A DNA stretch of 64,000 nucleotides from contig CANDVA010000014.1 of assembly GCA_947389015.1 (NCBI GenBank), forward strand, positions 1-64,000, in the 5' to 3' direction. This DNA comes from an uncultured Clostridia bacterium (GTDB taxonomy: Bacteria; Bacillota; Clostridia; Oscillospirales; Ruminococcaceae). Both the position numbers and the translations under genes were made by a program. The notes beneath the pieces were generated by a model. The model saw only the letters and a list, made by a program, of their open reading frames with translations, was not told where the DNA came from and searched no databases. Shown piece after piece: positions 233 through 9,550 of this stretch. Numbering within the stretch: position 1 is the stretch's first letter; every line of letters starts with the position of its first letter.

Positions 233-508
233 GATTGCAAGGATGTCAAGATTTTCAGAGCCTAGGAAAAACAATATTGCAGAGCAAGGTTGCATTGATT
301 TTTAGCTGCAAGGTTGTGCGGTCAAGATTGCGTTTCCCAGAGCCTAAAAAATCCAGCAATGTTGCAACGTTGAACTGATTTCGCTGCAAGCGGGGGAGTG
401 CAGAGGGGCGGTAGCCCCTTTGCCGCAAAGACTTTTGATACGAAATGAGGAACGAGTGAAGTGTCAAAAGTAACTTTGCGTTGTTACCGTCACAACGGAG
501 GTGATTTA
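233..508 (+). other. oriT-like leader of the relaxase gene
   Basis: This non-coding leader carries repeated words: CAGAGCCTA twice (near 256 and 338), GTCAAGATT twice (near 248 and 322) and GCTGCAAG twice (near 306 and 383). A GC-rich hairpin at 402-421 (AGGGGC-GGTA-GCCCCT) has no T-run behind it. MobV/Pre relaxases normally act on an oriT directly upstream of their own gene, so the position fits. The nick site was not identified, and the call is inference from placement and structure. Confidence 0.4.
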
Positions 509-1804
509 TTGAAAAAGACCATTAGCATACGCATTGGAAAAGGAAGCATTTCCCATAACAACAGGAAGTTTGTCGCGAAGAATGTTGACGAAAAACGTGT
601 TAATGACAACATAACGCTTTGCAACGTTGACCTCAAGAAAACCTATGATGAACTGTTCGGAGCGGCACTCGCGGAATACAATGCCAAGCAGAAAAGAAAA
701 GACCGCCGTATTGAGAACTACCTTGAACACATCGAAAACGGCAAGCAGGAGAAGCCGTTCTATGAGCTTATTTTTCAGATCGGCAACAAGGACGATACTC
801 CCTGCGGCTCGGAAGACGCGGCGGTGGCTGTTGATATCCTACGGGAATACTATACCGATTTTTTGGAACGAAATCCGCACATCAGAGTGTTTAACGCAGT
901 GATACATCTTGATGAAGCTACTCCGCACTTACACGTTGATTTTGTTCCGTTCGCAACAGAGCAGAGCCGAGGACTGTCTACCCGTAACTCTTTAAGCAAG
1001 GCTTTGGAACAACAGGGCTTTTCTGCAAAGACCACCCTTGAAACTCCCGCCAAGCAATGGACGGATTTCGAGAAACAACGGCTTGCCGAAGTTATGCTCA
1101 AGCGCGGAATTGAGTGGGAGCAGCTCGGAACGCATAACGAACACCTCTCCGTCCTTGACTTTAAGAAACAGGAACGTGAGAAAGAGGTTAGGCAGCTTGA
1201 CAGTGAAATCGGCAGCAAAGAACTGATACTTGAATGGCGAAAACAGGCGGTTCTTGACACCGAAGATACTCTTGATAAGCTCGGCACGGAGTTACGGGAG
1301 AAAAGTGCCGAGGTTGAACAGCTTGACAGCGCGATCTCCGAAAAGCAAAGCGCTCTCACTAAAACAGATACCGTTCTTGCCAAAAAGCAAGCTATCCTAA
1401 ACGAGAGCGCACATAAGGTGTTCAAAATTGACTATATTGACAACATCGAAACGGGTAAAACGGTTTTCGGCGGCAAGGTTACAGTGGCTCGTGATGATTA
1501 TGACAGGCTGACAAATCTTGCGAAAAAACAGATCGCTGCCGAGAGCAAAGAGGGCGAGCTTACTGCGGAGAATGCCAGTCTGAAAGAAAAGAACGCCACA
1601 CTCGCCGCCGAGAATGATAAGCTGCAAGATGAGGTGCGGTCGGCAAAGTCGCTGCGGAGTTCTCTTTCAGCCTTGCAAAAAGAGTTGGACGGTTGGAAAC
1701 AGCGATACAAAAAAATCATGGAGTTTATAGAAAGTCTGGGGCTGAAAGAAAAATTAGAGCGTTTTTTGATTCCTAAAAATATAGGTGTAAACAAGCGGCG
1801 CTAA
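509..1804 (+). CDS. MobV/Pre-family relaxase (plasmid mobilization/recombination protein)
   Basis: The protein should nick oriT and pilot single-stranded DNA during mobilization by a helper conjugation system. A frame-compatible GTG exists at 461, but TTG 509 is preferred: GGAGGTG lies at 497-503, and the product then starts KKTISIRIGKGS, as Pre/Mob proteins do. The N-terminal third carries the family's metal-binding signature HLDEATPHLH (roughly residues 130-140), followed by the basic DNA-handling region. The C-terminal half is a long, charged, coiled-coil-like segment (about residues 230-400), usual for MobV. No type IV secretion gene is visible, so transfer would need help in trans. The gene follows an oriT-like leader and marks this end of the window as mobile. 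Confidence 0.9.
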   Translation: MKKTISIRIGKGSISHNNRKFVAKNVDEKRVNDNITLCNVDLKKTYDELFGAALAEYNAKQKRKDRRIENYLEHIENGKQEKPFYELIFQIGNKDDTPCGSEDAAVAVDILREYYTDFLERNPHIRVFNAVIHLDEATPHLHVDFVPFATEQSRGLSTRNSLSKALEQQGFSAKTTLETPAKQWTDFEKQRLAEVMLKRGIEWEQLGTHNEHLSVLDFKKQEREKEVRQLDSEIGSKELILEWRKQAVLDTEDTLDKLGTELREKSAEVEQLDSAISEKQSALTKTDTVLAKKQAILNESAHKVFKIDYIDNIETGKTVFGGKVTVARDDYDRLTNLAKKQIAAESKEGELTAENASLKEKNATLAAENDKLQDEVRSAKSLRSSLSALQKELDGWKQRYKKIMEFIESLGLKEKLERFLIPKNIGVNKRR

Positions 1805-2018
1805 ATCACCACTGAAATTTTAGAAAACATTACAACCAGTGCCCGCCAATTAACATATCGTTTATGAATATCTAGGTGATATATTAAATATAATACCAAT
1901 AAAAGCTTGTCAATTTAACATTACGGATTAAGAAAAATTTTAACACGGTGTTGGTGTAACTTTATTTTGTGTGAATAGGCAAGATTTTATTGCTAGAGTA
2001 ACAGCAATAGGGGGAAAT

Positions 2019-2270
2019 ATGAAAAAAACAATATCCCAAAATATGATTGAAATTTTAACCTTAAATGGACAAAAAAGTGTGTGGTACGGCGACATAAAAG
2101 TGATAGAAGAATGCGCTAATAAATCAAATATTCAAAAAGGGCACCCTCAAAAAACCATACAGTGTGTGTTAAACGCACTTGAATATTCAAAGTATTTTGA
2201 AAAAAGTTATATTATTTCCGATCACACCGGTAAAAAAAGGAAGTATAGATGCTTTACAATTAAATCATGA
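2019..2270 (+). CDS. small unknown protein, possibly winged-helix
   Basis: An 83-residue basic protein. ATG 2019 is chosen over a GTG 48 bases upstream because AGGGGG sits just ahead of it (2009-2014). I do not recognise a family. The alternating helix/strand pattern with a central KxxIQCVLNALEYS segment and a basic C-terminal hairpin would fit a small winged-helix (HARE-HTH-like) fold, which is only an inference. It ends one base before the end of the convergent restriction gene, so the two transcripts collide. It could be an accessory or antitoxin-like gene of the element, but nothing in the sequence proves that. Confidence 0.5.
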   Translation: MKKTISQNMIEILTLNGQKSVWYGDIKVIEECANKSNIQKGHPQKTIQCVLNALEYSKYFEKSYIISDHTGKKRKYRCFTIKS

Positions 2271-2271
2271 A

Positions 2272-4254
2272 CTATTCTTGCTCAAGTTTATCGAATATTT
2301 CAATTAGTGGCTGTGCTTGCTTATTTGCTTCAATGTATTCGCTATAAGCCTTAAAGGCGTTTTGAATTAATTCCTTGTAATAAACTATCCGAGCATTCAA
2401 CGGCTTAATGATATCATCAACCATGTTTCTGTTATCCAAGCTATCATCATTATCAATCGGACGTCCCACAATAAAAAGTATTTCGAATGCAGAATTATTT
2501 CGGCTTGATTCATAAAGCACCTTTTGCAATGCACTGTGATACTTTTTAACCTGTTTAACAACTTCTTCAGTTTTAATAATTCTACCTGCACGCTTCAACT
2601 CAATTACTATATGTTTTCCCGCGCTTTGTCTATAGCCCAAGTCCAAACGCGCAGATTTTTCTTCAGGTGTTAATGAGTCAATTTCGTGCTGCAGTGCCTT
2701 TTCAACTATAGTTTCCATATATTCCGTATTCTCTACTCTCTCCCAGGAAGGGTCAAGTAGCCAAAGATGATTGAAAAGATGTTCCTGCACAACTTTCTCA
2801 AGTGCATTTGTTTCTGTAATGTTTTGAAATTTTTTTACGACCTCCATTCTTTCTTTTATGATTTGATAGTAGAGAGTAGCCTCAATCTCATCCAATCCCG
2901 TAAAAACGTCTTTAAATATCTCAAAATTTTTTGCATCAATGCTGTCAATAGCACTTAAATGCCGAGTATACTTAAATTTTTCAAACGCCAATATACTGTA
3001 TTTGAGTATTTCACGTTTTTTGTCATCGTCCGCAATAATCTGGTTTACTTTTCCAAACATCTTCCTGGCATATTGTTTATCATCCCCCTTTAAACCACAA
3101 ATCCATGTATCAATTACGGGAAGTAACTCCACGGCTTTCTGTTCGCCTGTTTTATTTCTGAGTTCGGTCCACCTTCCCTCTATATACTTTAATTGATTGT
3201 ATACAAAATCTCTTAGTGCTGTAAATCTTTCGTCATCGTGTCTGTATTCTTGACGATTACTGGTTGCCATATCATCCATATCATCATCGTCAAAAAAATC
3301 TGCATTGATCTCTCCTATTAAATATTTTGAATACAATCCGCCCTCGGAGTATTCGCCAAGAATATCTTCCTGACCAAGCTTTCCTCTGACTAAAATAATA
3401 ATTTTGTTTAAGTTGTCGTCACCTTCCTTTAAATCGCCGGACGAATTTACCGATCCAATCCACCCGGATATCCTGTAATTTTTTGCATCGCATGAGACAA
3501 TGTTATCTAGCGATTCAACATGAACAACATTATTACAATAATCAGAGTATTTCTTGCTTTCCTTACCAAAATACCAGATATAAGTCAACTTATTGAAATA
3601 GTCCCTATCTTGAATAGTAACAGTTTCACCATTTACACGGACAGTAAAGTTGAACTCATCTCCGATTATCCCAAAACGTCTGGCAACTCTTTTCTTAATA
3701 TACGTTTCTGTTAATGTTGAGGTATTCTTTTTCAAATTTTTTAGAATAATCTTTGTTCCTGTTTCTTTTAGTTCATTTTCGGTAGTATCAATTGGCTCGG
3801 GATTATATGATTTGGACATATTAGAATTATCATCCTTTATGGCAGTTTCAATTTTCTTGCTATCCATTCTAAACGCATTTATTTCGTACTCTCCACTCTT
3901 TTTTTGCTTTCTGGAGATTACATCTATCTCTTGGGCGATAGAGAACATAGAGAGCTTTCCTATTCCCTTTCTCCCCATATACCTGCGCTTATATTTAGGA
4001 GACTCTAACGATTCTTCCCTCTTTCTGTGACCTACATATAAGAATTTGTTGTTTATATCATAAATATCCATGCCGCAACCGTTATCTTCAATAATGATTT
4101 TATCCTTATCTATAGTAATATCGACTTGATTCGCATCAGCGTCCCAAGAGTTTGCAACAATTTCTGACAAAACTGCCGGAATATTACTGTATAGATTTAT
4201 TCCAAGGTGGTTAAGAACATTTAAACTTAATGACATCGTGTACTTTTCACTCAT
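2272..4254 (-). CDS. GHKL-ATPase restriction protein with C-terminal PD-(D/E)XK nuclease
   Basis: A 660-residue protein. The N-terminus is a GHKL (Hsp90/MutL/MORC-type) ATPase: N-box with E31 and N35 (EIVANSWDAD), DNGCGM at 57-62 and GRKGIGKLS at 94-102. Near the C-terminus, D538 followed by E552-L-K554 (HIVIELKRAG) has the spacing of a PD-(D/E)XK nuclease core. This architecture and the adjoining cytosine methyltransferase match the BbrUII/HgiDII-type restriction enzymes, whose known members cut GTCGAC; specificity here is not proven. The gene starts two bases after the methyltransferase stop, so modification and restriction are co-translated with modification first. It is AT-rich relative to the chromosome. 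The alternative, a MORC-like defence ATPase, is less likely given the nuclease motif. Confidence 0.8.
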   Translation of the reverse strand: MSEKYTMSLSLNVLNHLGINLYSNIPAVLSEIVANSWDADANQVDITIDKDKIIIEDNGCGMDIYDINNKFLYVGHRKREESLESPKYKRRYMGRKGIGKLSMFSIAQEIDVISRKQKKSGEYEINAFRMDSKKIETAIKDDNSNMSKSYNPEPIDTTENELKETGTKIILKNLKKNTSTLTETYIKKRVARRFGIIGDEFNFTVRVNGETVTIQDRDYFNKLTYIWYFGKESKKYSDYCNNVVHVESLDNIVSCDAKNYRISGWIGSVNSSGDLKEGDDNLNKIIILVRGKLGQEDILGEYSEGGLYSKYLIGEINADFFDDDDMDDMATSNRQEYRHDDERFTALRDFVYNQLKYIEGRWTELRNKTGEQKAVELLPVIDTWICGLKGDDKQYARKMFGKVNQIIADDDKKREILKYSILAFEKFKYTRHLSAIDSIDAKNFEIFKDVFTGLDEIEATLYYQIIKERMEVVKKFQNITETNALEKVVQEHLFNHLWLLDPSWERVENTEYMETIVEKALQHEIDSLTPEEKSARLDLGYRQSAGKHIVIELKRAGRIIKTEEVVKQVKKYHSALQKVLYESSRNNSAFEILFIVGRPIDNDDSLDNRNMVDDIIKPLNARIVYYKELIQNAFKAYSEYIEANKQAQPLIEIFDKLEQE

Positions 4255-4256
4255 GA

Positions 4257-5315
4257 TTAATTCCCTCCTAATTCTATGCCGTGTTCTAACAAATGATTAA
4301 CAATGGAAATGCCGATTATTTCTCCCAAACGTACCGGAACAGCGTTTCCAATGTGCCTAGCTATATCACTCATAACTGTCGGATGATCAGGATCAATAAA
4401 ATCATACCAATCAGGAAAAGTTTGCAGTAATGCCCCTTCCCTCAATGATAATGCCCTATCTTGTTCGGGATGCCCATATCTTCCTGTTCCATAATTATAG
4501 AACTGAGTTGTTATTGTTGGACCAATCTGTTGCCATGTCATTCTGCCATAAACGGAACTGTATGTTTGCCCGGTTTCTCGTTTGTGACATTCACACCTCA
4601 ATCTCTCCGGCCAATCTCTCCAAGTCCCTCCGGGAACAGAATGTTGAATTCTCTCCAGATTGATCTCGGATAAACCGGCTGCTCGGTGTAGTGGATCATT
4701 CGGATCTGCTTCTCCCGCTGCAATCGGCGGAAGGTCACCGATAAAATCTTCAACATGAATGTTATTTCTATCATGTGTTGGCTCAATGATATTTATATTA
4801 CCCAAAATTGAGCCGACCAGTACAAACCTTCTGCGGGTTTGCGGAATACCATAATCCGGACAATAGATAACTCTGTAATCCAAATGATATCTATTTTCAG
4901 TAAGTATTTCCAGAAATTCATCAAAAACATTCGTTTCTTGGATTTGCGGAACATTTTCCATAGAAACAATCGTTGGTTGTACTTCTTCAATTAGCCTGCC
5001 ATACTGTAAAAGCAGATTGTATTTTTCATCGTTGTGATTCCTGTCACCCAATTTAAATCGCATTTGTGAAAAAGGTTGACAAGGTGCACAGCCAACTAAA
5101 ATTCTTGTTGCATCATCGTCATATAGATCAACGATTTCCTCGCCATTTACCTCGCGAATATTTTGAAGGTGATATTCGACTTCATTGTTGTGTTCATATG
5201 TGTATTGACACGTGGGATCAATATCAAAACCCGCGATCACGTTTAAACCCGAGTTAATAAGCCCCCGAGTTAATCCTCCTATACCACAAAACAAGTCAAC
5301 AATCTGTGCTGGCAT
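4257..5315 (-). CDS. DNA (cytosine-5-)-methyltransferase, partner of the GHKL restriction protein
   Basis: A complete 352-residue m5C methyltransferase. Motif I is DLFCGIGG (7-14), motif IV is APCQPFS with catalytic C79, motif VI is ENV (120-122), motif VIII is QTRRRFVLVGS, motif IX is SLREGALLQTFP and motif X is IGNAVPV near the C-terminus. It lies directly upstream of the GHKL/PD-(D/E)XK gene with a two-base gap and 30 bases downstream of the HpaII-family endonuclease gene. By adjacency it protects the site cut by the GHKL protein. The target recognition region between motifs VIII and IX is compact, as in single-specificity enzymes. The sequence does not give the recognition site. Confidence 0.93.
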   Translation of the reverse strand: MPAQIVDLFCGIGGLTRGLINSGLNVIAGFDIDPTCQYTYEHNNEVEYHLQNIREVNGEEIVDLYDDDATRILVGCAPCQPFSQMRFKLGDRNHNDEKYNLLLQYGRLIEEVQPTIVSMENVPQIQETNVFDEFLEILTENRYHLDYRVIYCPDYGIPQTRRRFVLVGSILGNINIIEPTHDRNNIHVEDFIGDLPPIAAGEADPNDPLHRAAGLSEINLERIQHSVPGGTWRDWPERLRCECHKRETGQTYSSVYGRMTWQQIGPTITTQFYNYGTGRYGHPEQDRALSLREGALLQTFPDWYDFIDPDHPTVMSDIARHIGNAVPVRLGEIIGISIVNHLLEHGIELGGN

Positions 5316-5345
5316 TATGATACCTACTTTCTTTCAGTAAAAAAA

Positions 5346-6443
5346 TTATTTTACAAATCTTATTTGAACATTCAACTTAAGCTTTTGCCACCCGTTTTCC
5401 TCATATATTTTCCCAAAGCCGTGCTTGCTTTGGCTCGGCGTATCAAAACGGGTATTATCAAACATATAGTTCATAAAAGCATTGTGATTATAAATGTGAT
5501 AGCAGACTACATCTCCGTCATCCTTGACAATAATATATCCGCCGGTAGCTTCGTAATCTCCTGTCCAAAGTGTGTTTGGAACCATTCCCAAAGCAATGTT
5601 GGTCAGCAGATTTTTAAGCTTATGCTTAAGATATACACTGTTATCAAGCATATTAACTATTCCGCTTTTTGCAGCTATCTCGGTTAAGTCGAAAATTGTG
5701 TTCGCTTTCCCCTCGTAATACGCCTTAATCATATGGGCAAAAACTTCTGTCATTTCGGATGTTACCATTTTCAGATTAAAGTCAAAGATGTTATTGTCCG
5801 TACTGTCAAATTCAATATCCGCACCCAGCGAGTGTAAATATTCAAATTTCTGCTTAAATAATCTAAAGCTGTTGAACTTTGTAATTTCATCGGCTGAAAG
5901 CATGTGTCCTGTAATATAATAAGTAAAATTTGTAGCACCCGACGCATTAAATAACGTGGAAGGACTTCCGAGCTGTGATTTAATGCTAAACCCAAAGGTA
6001 TCATCACGTCCGGACATAATATCATGTACCATTAAATGGATATCAGCTTTATCCTGCGATTTAGCTTTTAACGACTTGCACTTAATGGATTCGGCAAAGC
6101 TCCATACTTCCGGTAATTCGAAAGAGCCATCGGAATCTTTCTTTTTACGTTTTTGATTTTCTATTTCTTGTTTCATTCCCAGAAGCAGCTTATCAGTTTG
6201 CTCAATGAAACTGCGGATTGGAATTGAACATATTACATCTCCGGTTTCGGCATTAATGACCTTAACATCAATATCACGACTGTATTCAAGTTTTGAATCC
6301 TTTTCCGAACGTAAAACCTTTAATACATCATAGTAGATTGTGGGAATTTTATTCGTGTTCGCATCTGCTGCATATAACTTCCCGTCTGCCAAAAGCTTAA
6401 AAAGTGTGTAAAGTTCGCTCCACTCACCAATGTTTCCGGTCAT
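5346..6443 (-). CDS. HpaII-family type II restriction endonuclease
   Basis: A 365-residue protein opening with GNIGEWSELYTLFKLLADGK, the hallmark N-terminus of the HpaII restriction endonuclease family. A later segment (FGFSIKSQLGSPSTLFNASG, about residues 150-170) has the acidic and lysine residues expected of the catalytic core. Known members cleave CCGG or related sites; the exact site here is not determined. Its start codon overlaps the stop of the upstream cytosine methyltransferase at 6443, the classic coupling of a modification gene with its nuclease. A C-terminal YIIVKDDGDVVCYHIYNHN block is also family-like. The length is normal and the gene appears intact. Confidence 0.88.
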   Translation of the reverse strand: MTGNIGEWSELYTLFKLLADGKLYAADANTNKIPTIYYDVLKVLRSEKDSKLEYSRDIDVKVINAETGDVICSIPIRSFIEQTDKLLLGMKQEIENQKRKKKDSDGSFELPEVWSFAESIKCKSLKAKSQDKADIHLMVHDIMSGRDDTFGFSIKSQLGSPSTLFNASGATNFTYYITGHMLSADEITKFNSFRLFKQKFEYLHSLGADIEFDSTDNNIFDFNLKMVTSEMTEVFAHMIKAYYEGKANTIFDLTEIAAKSGIVNMLDNSVYLKHKLKNLLTNIALGMVPNTLWTGDYEATGGYIIVKDDGDVVCYHIYNHNAFMNYMFDNTRFDTPSQSKHGFGKIYEENGWQKLKLNVQIRFVK

Positions 6444-7591
6444 TACTTACTCTCCTTTTCAAAATTCCGAATTGATTGATCCAATACGGACAATTGTTTC
6501 TTCATGAACTTTGCCATAACCTCCACCGCCGGTATAGTCACGGCATTTCCGAATTGCTTGTACCGAGACCCGTCCGCAAGACCTTCCGGAAAAGAAAACA
6601 AATCCTTTCCCGTTTTCTCATCAATAAACGCATAATTGATAAAGCCTTGCAGCTTTCCCCATTCACGTGGGGTCATAGCACGTATTCCTCTGTCATTAAG
6701 GGGAGTCTGCTTTGACGGAACGTTTTTTCCCGCTACGCCCTTTTTGGGGTCAATAACGAGATTTCGTTCCTTACCTGAGCCCCCAGTTGCCAAAATCGCA
6801 TTGGAAACAGGGTGCTCAATTTCGGGAAGATTAACGATCCGATACCCGAAACCGTTGCCCTTGCCCTCGTGACGAGCCTTGTGCCGTTCCAACGTTTCAA
6901 CATAACCCGAGGAAAGAAAATACTTATCATCGGCGTTCATTTCGAGCAGCTCGTTTAAATCTCTGTAGATATCAGTATCGCGCTTGGTAGGAAGTTCATG
7001 CGGAAGATCATCAACCTTATTTCCGAAATGCTTTCTGCTGAAACCCATTATGTATACTCTCGGACGGTTTTGCGGCACACCGAAATTCCGCGAGTTCCTC
7101 ACAAAGTCCTTTGCTGTGTATTCAAGTTCGCCGTTTTCTTTTTTCGTTACACCGATTACTTTATAATCAAGTTCATTTACCAGAACATTTAAAATCGTGT
7201 GAAATGTTTGTCCTTTATCGTGTGTGATCAGATTGTCTACATTCTCAAGCATAAATGCTTTCGGCTCCGTACGCTTGATTATATCGGCAATGTCAAAGAA
7301 CAGCGTTCCGCGTGTCTCGTCAAGAAAACCCTTTTTCTTTCCGGCTCTGCTGAACGCTTGGCACGGAAATCCTGCAAGGAGGACATCATACTTGGTCTTT
7401 GCAACTTTGTCCTTGAATTCACAGGTGGTAATATCGTTAGTTGGATCATCACCGTACAAGTGCTGATATGTAAGGCAAGCGTTTTTATCAATCTCGGCAG
7501 ATAAAACATTCTTGAAGCACCCTGCTAATTCGTAACCTTTGCGAATACCACCTATTCCTGCACAAAGGTCTATTGTCTTATACTTCTTCAT
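6443..7591 (-). CDS. DNA (cytosine-5-)-methyltransferase paired with the HpaII-family nuclease
   Basis: A 382-residue m5C methyltransferase. ATG 7591 is chosen: AGGAG lies eight bases upstream, and the product then begins KKYKTIDLCAGIGG, with motif I near the N-terminus. Motif IV GFPCQAFS contains catalytic C77, motif VI is ENVDNL (116-121), motif VIII is QNRPRVYIMGF, motif IX is RAMTPREWGKLQGF and motif X is QFGNAVTIPAV. An upstream in-frame ATG would add 17 poorly conserved residues. The start overlaps the last codons of the small HTH gene by 14 bases, and the stop overlaps the nuclease start. This suggests translational coupling across HTH, methyltransferase and nuclease. Confidence 0.93.
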   Translation of the reverse strand: MKKYKTIDLCAGIGGIRKGYELAGCFKNVLSAEIDKNACLTYQHLYGDDPTNDITTCEFKDKVAKTKYDVLLAGFPCQAFSRAGKKKGFLDETRGTLFFDIADIIKRTEPKAFMLENVDNLITHDKGQTFHTILNVLVNELDYKVIGVTKKENGELEYTAKDFVRNSRNFGVPQNRPRVYIMGFSRKHFGNKVDDLPHELPTKRDTDIYRDLNELLEMNADDKYFLSSGYVETLERHKARHEGKGNGFGYRIVNLPEIEHPVSNAILATGGSGKERNLVIDPKKGVAGKNVPSKQTPLNDRGIRAMTPREWGKLQGFINYAFIDEKTGKDLFSFPEGLADGSRYKQFGNAVTIPAVEVMAKFMKKQLSVLDQSIRNFEKESK

Positions 7592-7976
7592 TGCCATTTC
7601 TCCTTTGAAGCATTTCTTCAATCCGAATTTTATCATCGACATAGGTTCTCAATGCTTGAACTTCGTTCGTAGATAAATCAAACATCAATGATATGTATTT
7701 GTTTTGCCAAAACATAATTGTAGGATTAGAAAGGACAACGGGAATAAGTACACTGAACTTTTTATAAAAATTTGTTTCCTCTGCTTTTGTGCATTTTGCC
7801 TTATACACCTTGTCAACAACGCTGATTTCATGTTCTATTCTCTTAAAAACAATATTTATCAGTGCCGGAGAAACCCCTACGGCATTTGCAATTTGGGTTT
7901 TAGCGGTATATTGCCCGCCATTTACAGCGTCCAAAACCCTCTGAATGTTTTGAATTGTTGTTTCAAAAGCAGTCAT
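7578..7976 (-). CDS. small HTH protein inside the restriction-modification operon
   Basis: A 132-residue protein. An N-terminal helix-turn-helix is visible at about residues 22-45 (YTAKTQIANAVGVSPALINI), followed by a helical C-terminal region ending in a charged tail. It does not resemble the short (about 80-residue) classical C-proteins of restriction systems. It could regulate the operon or be a structural accessory factor. It begins 14 bases after the end of the split methyltransferase and overlaps the next methyltransferase start by 14 bases, so it is co-translated with that enzyme. Its function is unknown; a control role is inferred from the HTH and the position. Confidence 0.65.
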   Translation of the reverse strand: MTAFETTIQNIQRVLDAVNGGQYTAKTQIANAVGVSPALINIVFKRIEHEISVVDKVYKAKCTKAEETNFYKKFSVLIPVVLSNPTIMFWQNKYISLMFDLSTNEVQALRTYVDDKIRIEEMLQRRNGNEEV

Positions 7977-7990
7977 AATGTACTCCTAAC

Positions 7991-8926
7991 TTAAAACACA
8001 TGGGATAATCTTTCTGCTATTCGTCTTACGACGGGAACACAAACGGTATTTCCGCATTGCTTGTACGCTGCCTCAATCGGTATATCTTGAAACCTAAAAA
8101 CTGACGGAAAGCCTTGTAAAGCCAAACATTCGTAAGGTGTCAGCTTTCTTATCCCGAAATCATCTCGTATTATTGGGACTCGGTCGTGATATGTTCCCAT
8201 ATTCGCTTTCAGAGTAGGTGACAGCGTGTATTTATGAGTAGCCACTCCGCTGTCGTCAATTCTGTAAATTCCCGTTTTATCGGGAATCTTTCTATTTAAC
8301 ACATCGTAATATTTGTTGTCTGGAGGATAGTAAAAGAAATCGTCTTGTTTGACGGTACGGTTCATAATATCCTCAATTCCCACCGTTAACGAAATTTCCT
8401 CGGGAAATGTGAATTTGCTCATCATATCCAAATCCGAAAACGCAACTATAAAAGTGCGGCTGCGCTCTTGCGGAATATTTCCGTGAGTGCTCGCGTTCTG
8501 AACGCTGTACTTTATGTAATACCCTAACTCCGCAAACGTGTTGTGAATGGTCATAAATGTCTTTCCGTTATCGTGTTAAATCAAATTTTTCACATTCTCC
8601 AGTAAGATGACTTTCGGCTTCATATAATCGGCAATCCGCGCAATCTCAAAGAACAAATTGCCGCGCGGGTCTTTAAATCCACGTTGGTATCCCATAACCG
8701 AAAAGCTCTGGCACGGAAAACCGCCGAAAAGCACGTCTGTTTTCGGAATGGTTTTCTCATCAATTGATTTAATGTCGGCTTCCGCTATATAACCGGGAAG
8801 ATTATTTCGATAGGTCACACAAGCAAACCGGTCAATCTCGTTTGCCCAAATCACATCAAATCCCGCTTGCTTAAACGCAATGTCTATGCCACCTATTCCC
8901 GAGAAAAGGCTCACTGCCGAAGTCAT
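7991..8926 (-). pseudogene. vsr-linked DNA cytosine methyltransferase interrupted by an in-frame stop
   Basis: Two frames of identical phase (8576-8926 and 7991-8554) add up to one m5C methyltransferase of about 311 codons. The first part has motif I (SLFSGIGG), motif IV GGFPCQSFS with catalytic C72 and motif VI ENVKNLI. The second part has the QERSRTFIVAF motif VIII, KLTPYECLALQGFP motif IX and QCGNTVCVPVV motif X. Between them, codon 117 is TAA (8576-8578), immediately after ENVKNLI and followed by HDNGKTF, which normally continues in this family. No frameshift is involved. The enzyme is presumably dead unless the stop is suppressed or the two halves reassemble; split m5C enzymes are known but have a different breakpoint logic. 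It overlaps vsr by four bases. Confidence 0.85.
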
Positions 8927-9333
8927 CTCCGAACCGCCCTTTCAATGATGTCGGCGCACTCTTGCAAGTTTTTCTTGATGTCATTACCCCAAAAGCGAAG
9001 TACCGTCCAACCCTCTGATTCAAGCTGCGCCGTGACTTCCTTGTCACGCTCCATATTACGCTCGATTTTCGGAATCCAAAACTCCCGCCGCGACTTAAAA
9101 TCGTGCTTGCGTTCTTCCCAGTTATATCCATGCCAGAACTCGCTGTCACAGAACACGGCAACCTTTTTACCGATAAAGACTATATCGGGTTTGCCGCAAA
9201 TTCCGTTGACGTTCTTCCGATAACGCAAGCCGCGCGACCAAAGCTCCCTCATCAGCATAATCTCAATTTTCGAGCCTTTGTTCTTGACCTGCTTCATGTT
9301 GTATGTAATTTGCTCCGGGGTTCGCCTGTCCAT
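8923..9333 (-). CDS. vsr: very short patch repair endonuclease Vsr
   Basis: Vsr nicks next to T:G mismatches that arise when 5-methylcytosine deaminates, starting repair back to C:G. The protein (about 136 residues) opens with DRRTPEQITYNMKQVKNKGS and carries the family landmarks GKPDIVF (with the metal-binding Asp) and FCDSEFWHGYNW, then a WTVLRFWGND ending. ATG 9333 is preferred over GTG 9339 because of the AGGA spacing. The stop overlaps the start of the split methyltransferase (ATGA), the usual dcm-vsr arrangement. It is the promoter-proximal gene of the modification operon. With its direct partner broken, it may now serve the two intact methyltransferases. Confidence 0.93.
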   Translation of the reverse strand: MDRRTPEQITYNMKQVKNKGSKIEIMLMRELWSRGLRYRKNVNGICGKPDIVFIGKKVAVFCDSEFWHGYNWEERKHDFKSRREFWIPKIERNMERDKEVTAQLESEGWTVLRFWGNDIKKNLQECADIIERAVRR

Positions 9334-9350
9334 AAACACACGTCCTGTTC

Positions 9351-9528: not shown

Positions 9529-9550
9529 GAGTGGGAATTTACTCCCACTC
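9529..9550. other. putative attachment core at the 3' end of guaA
   Basis: GAGTGGGA (9529-9536) and TCCCACTC (9543-9550) form an 8-base perfect inverted repeat around a 6-base spacer, and the right arm plus spacer contains the last codons and stop of guaA. Inverted arms around a 6-8 base spacer are the usual tyrosine-recombinase core geometry. The 3' end of guaA is a known integration hotspot. The other att copy would lie left of the window. Confidence 0.5.

Follow-up and report, generated by a model that had tools for sequence, protein, structure and literature searches.

Two restriction-modification (RM) systems and a mismatch endonuclease gene lie in a single row on one mobile element: what kind of locus is this, and from which parts was it assembled? 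The question is raised by a row of genes on the minus strand (9333–2272) of a 64,000-nucleotide stretch, hereafter the window, which comprises positions 1 to 64,000 of contig CANDVA010000014.1 from an uncultured gut bacterium of the Clostridia, family Ruminococcaceae (assembly GCA_947389015.1). Read from guaA, the row consists of vsr, M1, an HTH-like open reading frame (ORF), M2, R.HpaII, M3, and R3, and is followed on the plus strand by s99, which is convergent to R3, and then by a MobV-type relaxase gene. Our analysis confirms that the row is real. The best explanation, to which we assign a probability of roughly 80%, is a MobV-type mobilizable element inserted at guaA and carrying a compact stack of two RM systems. 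Below, other genomes are designated by G numbers and individual loci by L numbers; the genomes of the relatives are in many cases fragmented.

In the first system, M2 would mark its site, probably CCGG, with 5-methylcytosine (m5C), and R.HpaII would cut invading DNA lacking this mark; Vsr would nick the T:G mismatches that arise when marked cytosines deaminate, and M1 would be an accessory methyltransferase recently lost in this strain through a nonsense codon. The second system, formed by M3, R3, and perhaps s99, would be a separately moving cassette in which M3 marks a site of its own (GTCGAC is the precedent in the BbrUII/HgiDII family) and R3, an ATP-dependent GHKL nuclease, cuts DNA without the mark. 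As a side effect, the element may be stabilised by the killing of cells that lose the stack. Both sites are taken from family names and general knowledge, and the start sites and all enzyme activities of the row genes are read from sequence only.

Gene content and layout of the row

A preliminary description of this DNA had claimed seven genes on one strand, with gaps of 30 bases or less and several overlaps, that combine two restriction systems with a repair gene on a guaA-inserted mobile element. All named genes are present and their families score above cut-offs: with M1 entered as two frames, the stretch from vsr to R3 has eight, of which seven strongly match curated profiles and one, the HTH-like ORF, matches none. 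The first gene, vsr (8923–9339, minus strand, with possible starts at GTG 9339 or ATG 9333), encodes a very-short-patch-type mismatch endonuclease that belongs to the Vsr family by TIGR00632 (140.7 bits, cut-off 97.85) and PF03852 (80.7 bits); both FWH and the PD aspartate are retained in its alignment to structure 1cw0 of Vsr (E 7e-13). M1 (7991–8926, minus strand) is an m5C methyltransferase gene in two pieces, 8926–8576 and 8554–7991, both matching PF00145 and separated by a single in-frame TAA. The HTH-like ORF (7578–7976, minus strand, 132 aa) is a possible regulator without a match in Pfam, NCBIfam, or PADLOC; its label was assigned by eye, in the preliminary description as here, with no profile behind it.

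M2 (6443–7597, minus strand; PF00145, 238.9 bits) is the m5C methyltransferase gene paired with R.HpaII; its ORF opens at 7642 and its likely start is at 7597, after AAAGGAG. R.HpaII (5346–6443, minus strand) encodes a type II restriction endonuclease with matches to PF09561 (336.5 bits, cut-off 25) and PADLOC REase_II (269 bits). M3 (4257–5315, minus strand; PF00145, 195.5 bits) is the m5C methyltransferase gene paired with R3 (2272–4254, minus strand), whose product combines a GHKL ATPase with a C-terminal PD-(D/E)XK-like nuclease and belongs to the BbrUII/HgiDII family, or paraMORC3 type (NF050001, 767.6 bits, curated cut-off 550). Its residues E31/N35/D38, D57/G59/G61, G94/K100, and D538/E552/K554 are invariant between the window and two relatives (L004 and L005), and we read them as putatively intact GHKL motifs and an ExK nuclease motif.

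The genes are tightly spaced, with overlaps between vsr and M1 (4 bases), the HTH-like ORF and M2 (20 bases, or 17 if the start is taken 3 bases later), and M2 and R.HpaII (1 base), and gaps of 14 bases between M1 and the HTH-like ORF, 30 between R.HpaII and M3, and 2 between M3 and R3. No minus-strand terminator-like site lies between genes of the row, the sole minus-strand match being inside vsr, and the counts of promoter-like (26; shuffles 22.8, sd 5.4) and terminator-like sites (4; shuffles 5.1) are both within the shuffle range. A single transcript for the whole row is plausible. GC content is 0.40 for 461–9339 vs 0.51 in a 400-kb sample of the genome, and dN/dS between the window and L004 is 0.04–0.24 for all genes tested.

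A probable mobilizable element at guaA

In the window, guaA ends at 9539, and the relaxase gene (461–1804, plus strand) matches PF01076 above cut-off (59.6 bits) and NF041497 under its cut-off (45.6 bits vs 100). The window's first base is also the first of its contig, which begins inside the element, so the sequence lacks the element's far end. The closest relative, L004, is a rabbit metagenome contig of 57,611 bases from the same genus (G063:C15). After guaA it carries the same row without the HTH-like ORF, followed by a MobV relaxase gene (74% identical), a primase-like gene, a small gene, a tyrosine integrase gene, a small ORF that we read as an excisionase, and a Cro-type regulator gene. 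The terminal 12 bases of guaA occur twice in L004 without mismatch (4087 and 17832), the copies standing 13.7 kb apart with the integrase and regulator genes in between, and a second integrase gene follows the far repeat.

L004 has the anatomy of an integrative mobilizable element inserted at guaA, with relaxase, integrase, and direct-repeat ends all present, whereas the window, with its contig starting within the element, shows the relaxase and the guaA end only; what is visible resembles an ordinary mobilizable element of the guaA/MobV kind. The L004 integrase has only distant relatives in the window's genome (23–29% identical), and the integrase half is therefore either absent from the assembly or different. 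A megablast search of the element against plasmids and phages gave no match.

Among 43 genomes of the genus, 38 gave a match to the guaA end, and 30 neighbourhoods, the window's included, were read up to 1.5 kb. A vsr gene follows guaA in four of them (the window, G063, G007, and G001), with other genes after vsr in the last two; an integrase-like match occurs in nine further neighbourhoods, and in 6 of the 30 the sequence stops too near guaA for vsr to be seen. guaA is a busy insertion site in this genus, in which the full set is known from two genomes, the window's and G063. The gene order, whose recurrence in other guaA-inserted elements the preliminary description had left to be looked for, is conserved in one other species, though not the HTH-like ORF, and the two other genomes with vsr at guaA diverge. 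In G007 (L003 2022–5187), guaA is followed by vsr, an HNH endonuclease gene, and an R.HpaII gene whose match starts at residue 16, and no methyltransferase was matched within the 14 kb read; this locus is perhaps a decayed relative of the stack.

The setting raises the alternative that the stack is mainly an addiction module retaining the element, not a phage defence. It sits on a mobilizable element, a cell losing it would need to survive two systems, and type II RM has been proposed as a possible addiction function on such elements (PMC5704250; this and the other papers cited are considered for the parts of their text accessible to us). Present evidence does not favour addiction over defence or the reverse. 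In G007, vsr and an R.HpaII shortened at its N-terminus persist at guaA, and no methyltransferase was matched in the 14 kb there, so parts of the stack can be lost. We regard a primary addiction role as the strongest competitor, if a somewhat doubtful one, and retain the two-system stack with stabilisation as a possible side effect.

Assignment of vsr, M1, and the HTH-like ORF

Gene neighbourhoods indicate that vsr, M1, the HTH-like ORF, M2, and R.HpaII form one HpaII-type system, not several, because vsr and M1 recur with M2 and R.HpaII (the HTH-like ORF once). R.HpaII clearly belongs to PF09561 and is adjacent to an m5C methyltransferase gene. It was present in 9 of 394 genomes of the order, and in seven of these nine, vsr accompanies M2-type and R.HpaII genes (spread over two contig ends in G195); of the remaining two, G258 is cut by a contig end and G328 has no vsr in the 1 kb available. 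Vsr beside an HpaII-type system is the norm in this order. An M1-type methyltransferase gene lies in the row in six of the nine.

In a methyltransferase tree, M1 falls into a clade (support 100/99) with L004, L083, L086, L087, L088, and L091, and all seven members, the window included, lie beside R.HpaII. Searching 396 genomes of the family with M1 returned five matches at E 1e-70 or better, two of them new and from two genera other than the window's: G644 (L243), with vsr-M1-HTH-M2, one extra ORF, and R.HpaII, and G646, with vsr-M1-M2, an extra ORF, and R.HpaII. The HTH relative between M1 and M2 in G644 is 67% identical; none was found in L244. No M3 or R3 match lies behind R.HpaII in G644 and G646 (2.1 and 3.0 kb read, with the G644 contig ending there). 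Of the grouping given in the preliminary description, the two RM systems stand, but vsr, M1, and the HTH-like ORF are not extra systems.

The arrangement around M2 is variable. M2 adjoins R.HpaII in L004, L084, and L090 and is one ORF apart from it in L244/L248; its genes fall into two types, and the window's type also occurs as vsr-M2-R without M1 (L084/G399) and as vsr-M2 (L096). In two loci vsr is fused to M2 in one frame (L083 4801–6228, 475 aa; L087 4738–6162, 474 aa), and in two others M2 is fused to R.HpaII (L004 5658–7910, 750 aa; L086 6102–8189, 695 aa). A Vsr-methyltransferase fusion was not found in the accessible text of the literature examined. Upstream of the vsr::M2 fusion of L083, in G150, lies an Mrr-type restriction endonuclease gene (3857–4735, PF04471). 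M2 alone probably protects against this type of R.HpaII, since L084 has vsr-M2-R alone with no M1 in the row; its genome, G399, was outside the M1 matches of the family search, though it does appear in another, equally large sample of the family.

Vertical inheritance of the HpaII module with guaA was considered and rejected. Its dS resembles that of guaA (near saturation), but vsr and M2 are equally close to another genus, with 86% and 88% identity to G644 vs 85% and 89% to the same-genus relative, which makes exchange between lineages the more likely course.

M1 could instead be an independent orphan methyltransferase, for example one protecting against competing systems, served by vsr. The vsr-M1 overlap and the low dN/dS of M1 against L004 (0.05 and 0.10 for the two pieces) would fit such a role. 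The clade, with all seven rows beside R.HpaII, does not, nor does the company vsr keeps where M1 lies elsewhere (L083, L087) or is unmatched (L084, L096), as it is there found with M2 or fused to it. We consider an orphan M1 unlikely and an accessory of the HpaII-type system the better description.

The preliminary description had called M1 a split methyltransferase, which did not hold in the sense of a conserved two-subunit enzyme. The gene is uninterrupted in L004, L243, and L244, which have Tyr at the stop position, so the stop is private to the window assembly. Private amino-acid changes over 308 sites number 13 in the window, 15 in L004, 11 in L243, and 23 in L244, with no excess in the window. 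The break is either recent, or an assembly error, or leaves both halves functional. The last option, a working two-subunit enzyme assembled after the TAA by restart at an ATG 21 bases on, is improbable: two-part m5C enzymes, such as M.AquI, are known, the second ATG has GGAAAG ahead of it, and the pieces retain recognisable m5C motifs with no second stop or frameshift and no excess of change, but M1-clade relatives are single stop-free frames (in L091 the ORF from the first start codon is shorter), L004, L243, and L244 show no split, and the private stop is perhaps an assembly error.

The M3-R3 cassette and its mosaic boundary

By sequence comparison, M3-R3 is a separate cassette added to the HpaII-type system. 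In 300-base windows (one with 37 aligned bases, at the HTH-like ORF, was excluded), identity to L004 is 67–87% across guaA, vsr, M1, M2, R.HpaII, and the start of M3, then 91–98% from ∼4900 to 2530, 88–89% to ∼2080, 63–72% from ∼2080 to 1180, and 76–83% over most of the remaining MobV gene. The dS values are 0.44 for M3, 0.24 for R3, and 0.64 for s99; vsr, M2, R.HpaII, and guaA have 1.3–1.9, the two pieces of M1 have 1.5 and 3.0, and MobV has 1.6, the high values being near saturation. High identity and low dS therefore indicate that the segment from mid-M3 through R3 was shared or replaced recently. The block of recent common ancestry with L004 (2700–4900, mid-M3 to late R3, with approximate edges) includes the M3 specificity region and most of R3.

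The small ORF s99 (1971–2270, plus strand) accompanies M3-R3, with relatives behind R3 in L004 (82% identical) and L005 (56%). It stands behind R3 in three loci and weakly matches Cas2-type proteins in PADLOC (E 0.008 and 0.0003).

The M3-R3 pair also occurs in L004, L005, and two plasmid records (L135 and L136), and L005 has M3-R3-s99 with no vsr or R.HpaII match in 20 kb. A phage record carries a similar pair in convergent orientation, annotated as ParaMORC3 and Dcm; searches of viral contigs with R3 and with a GHKL-TIR protein (below) found no relative. At E 1e-59 or better, NF050001 is matched in 4 of the 394 order genomes (G000, G150, G399, and G167), all with M3-clade neighbours. R.HpaII is also present in three of these four (expected 0.09), or in two of three without the window, small numbers in either case; in G399 the two are on different contigs.

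Exchange of partners around M3

Methyltransferases of the M3 lineage are found next to a partner that cuts DNA in some bacteria and, in others, next to one predicted to cause cell suicide. In G150, a single-contig genome, vsr::M2-R.HpaII-M1 is followed by an M3 gene 73% identical to that of the window, and the gene after it encodes a protein whose identity to R3 is 27% over the GHKL part and 14% over the C-terminal part; G399 has an M3 that is 80% identical, and here the corresponding figures are 29% and 13%. Identities of 13–14% leave no recognisable similarity to the R3 C-terminus; the C-terminal domains of both partners match that of SpbK, which carries TIR. The M3 specificity regions are 76–80% identical between the window and both of these TIR-type loci.

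A GHKL ATPase with an SpbK-like TIR domain replaces the nuclease directly behind an M3-type methyltransferase in L083 (9376–11283), L085 (5688–7604), and L098 (5751–7640). The isolated C-terminal domains of L083 and L085 match PADLOC spbK (E 4e-16 and 7e-16), and a profile match links the GHKL-TIR C-terminal domain to the SpbK structure 9phb (E 1e-8); the TIR assignment is based on these two lines, Pfam and NCBIfam giving no TIR hit. To our knowledge, SpbK itself has no GHKL domain and no methyltransferase partner. A conserved glutamate of the GHKL-TIR proteins aligns with the SpbK motif and would correspond to E192 under an assumed offset of 24 in chain numbering; SpbK is a TIR NADase that has been mutated at this residue (PMC12847820).

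The M3 of L098 is 54% identical and its partner 82% identical to that of L085; a partner of the TIR kind also accompanies M3 in a Listeria record (M3 50% identical; partner 50% identical over 98%), and a GmrSD_N gene follows M3 relatives in G744 (53%) and G705 (50%). A nucleotide search for GHKL-TIR in Escherichia coli genomes gave no match. In a 12-row M3 tree, from which methyltransferase rows outside the M3 clade of the larger tree were left out, well-supported branches require that the nuclease label and the TIR label were each gained or lost at least three times. Clustering of the partner labels does not exceed that seen after shuffling (5 changes vs a shuffled mean of 5.3); several deeper forks are weak.

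We tentatively propose, at somewhat less than even odds, that M3 is a fixed self-marking half whose effector half is freely exchanged, with the window's stack representing one setting of a switch that leads from the same methyl mark to either restriction or abortive infection. The GHKL nuclease would cut unmarked DNA, and the GHKL-TIR partner, on sensing such DNA, would deplete NAD and so kill the cell. Partner exchange on one methyltransferase lineage was not found in the accessible text of Iyer et al. 2008 or of two other open-access papers that mention paraMORC. As a separate observation, GTCGAC is nearly absent (2 vs 48 expected) in the sample of G016 (L101, L197–L216), a genome that has a distant GHKL-partner gene behind a methyltransferase gene.

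Recognition sites and genome composition

By analogy with the family, the site of the HpaII-type system is probably CCGG. BsaWI cuts WCCGGW, so BsaWI-like genes beside the HpaII module in two loci (L084 5486–6103 and L247 3195–3839; PF18643 at 19.1 and 24.9 bits, both under the 26.2 cut-off) fit a site containing CCGG. They perhaps encode a second nuclease for an overlapping site.

Several observations weigh against the proposed mechanism. CCGG avoidance, considered as proof of the HpaII site, was rejected, since depletion occurs both with and without the HpaII family (observed/expected, o/e, 0.205–0.386 in six non-carrier genomes). Among the first four genomes (367–400 kb each), o/e was 0.205 and 0.271 in carriers and 0.37 and 0.386 in non-carriers, and in samples of 80 kb each it was 0.205–0.248 in G001, G002, G005, and G010, which have no member of the HpaII family, and 0.204 in G007, with its short R.HpaII. 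Composition therefore lends no support to a CCGG site. GTCGAC shows little avoidance in the genome of the window (o/e 0.82; 0.47 in G063), and the His/Cys residues that flank FWH in 1cw0 are not retained in the window's Vsr. Other motifs are also depleted in the genomes sampled: GGCC in all nine (L137–L236; o/e 0.03–0.12), GATC and CATG strongly in G016 and more weakly in G018, and CATG and CGCG in G001.

Comparison with known systems

The first system resembles other HpaII-type RM (PF09561) in its nuclease family and adjacent m5C methyltransferase, and differs in adding vsr, M1 (broken here), and the HTH-like ORF, and in the M2-R fusion of L004. M3-R3 corresponds to BbrUII/HgiDII, the paraMORC3 of Iyer et al. 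2008 (PMC2292703), in having an m5C methyltransferase next to a GHKL ATPase with a C-terminal ExK nuclease, but the window pair lies behind an HpaII-type system in one row and has a convergent s99. That study named paraMORC3 (GHKL-nuclease) and paraMORC4 (GHKL-TIR) and linked both to RM genes and Vsr. The GHKL-TIR partners of M3 relatives in L083, L085, L098, and L249 are like paraMORC4 (Iyer et al. 2008) and SpbK (PMC12847820), a type not present in the window.

R3 shares its GHKL ATPase and PD-(D/E)xK nuclease with VcSduA, a GHKL-type Shedu, and proteins of this kind were formerly annotated as paraMORC3 (PMC12137116). VcSduA is a defence system of its own for which the accessible text names DUF4263 and no methyltransferase, whereas R3 starts 2 bases behind M3 and has no such Pfam match. 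The element, as represented in L004, shares the guaA 3' end, tyrosine recombinase, and MobV relaxase with ATE-1 and other integrative mobilizable elements at guaA (PMC5704250); a toxin-antitoxin system is listed for ATE-1, and the cargo of the window element is two RM systems.

Implications

The individual parts and the kind of element are known; what the analysis adds is the reassignment of vsr, M1, and the HTH-like ORF to the HpaII-type system, the mosaic origin of the row, and the partner exchange around M3. The locus connects HpaII-type systems, among them some with natural fusions of Vsr to a methyltransferase or of a methyltransferase to the nuclease, with Vsr and a second methyltransferase, and illustrates how RM stacks on small mobile elements may be assembled from separately moving cassettes. 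If the proposed exchange of GHKL partners is true, one DNA methylation mark would signal self both to a partner that cuts DNA and to one that drives cell suicide through TIR, and the M3-lineage loci offer a clean natural set for asking whether one mark serves both effectors.

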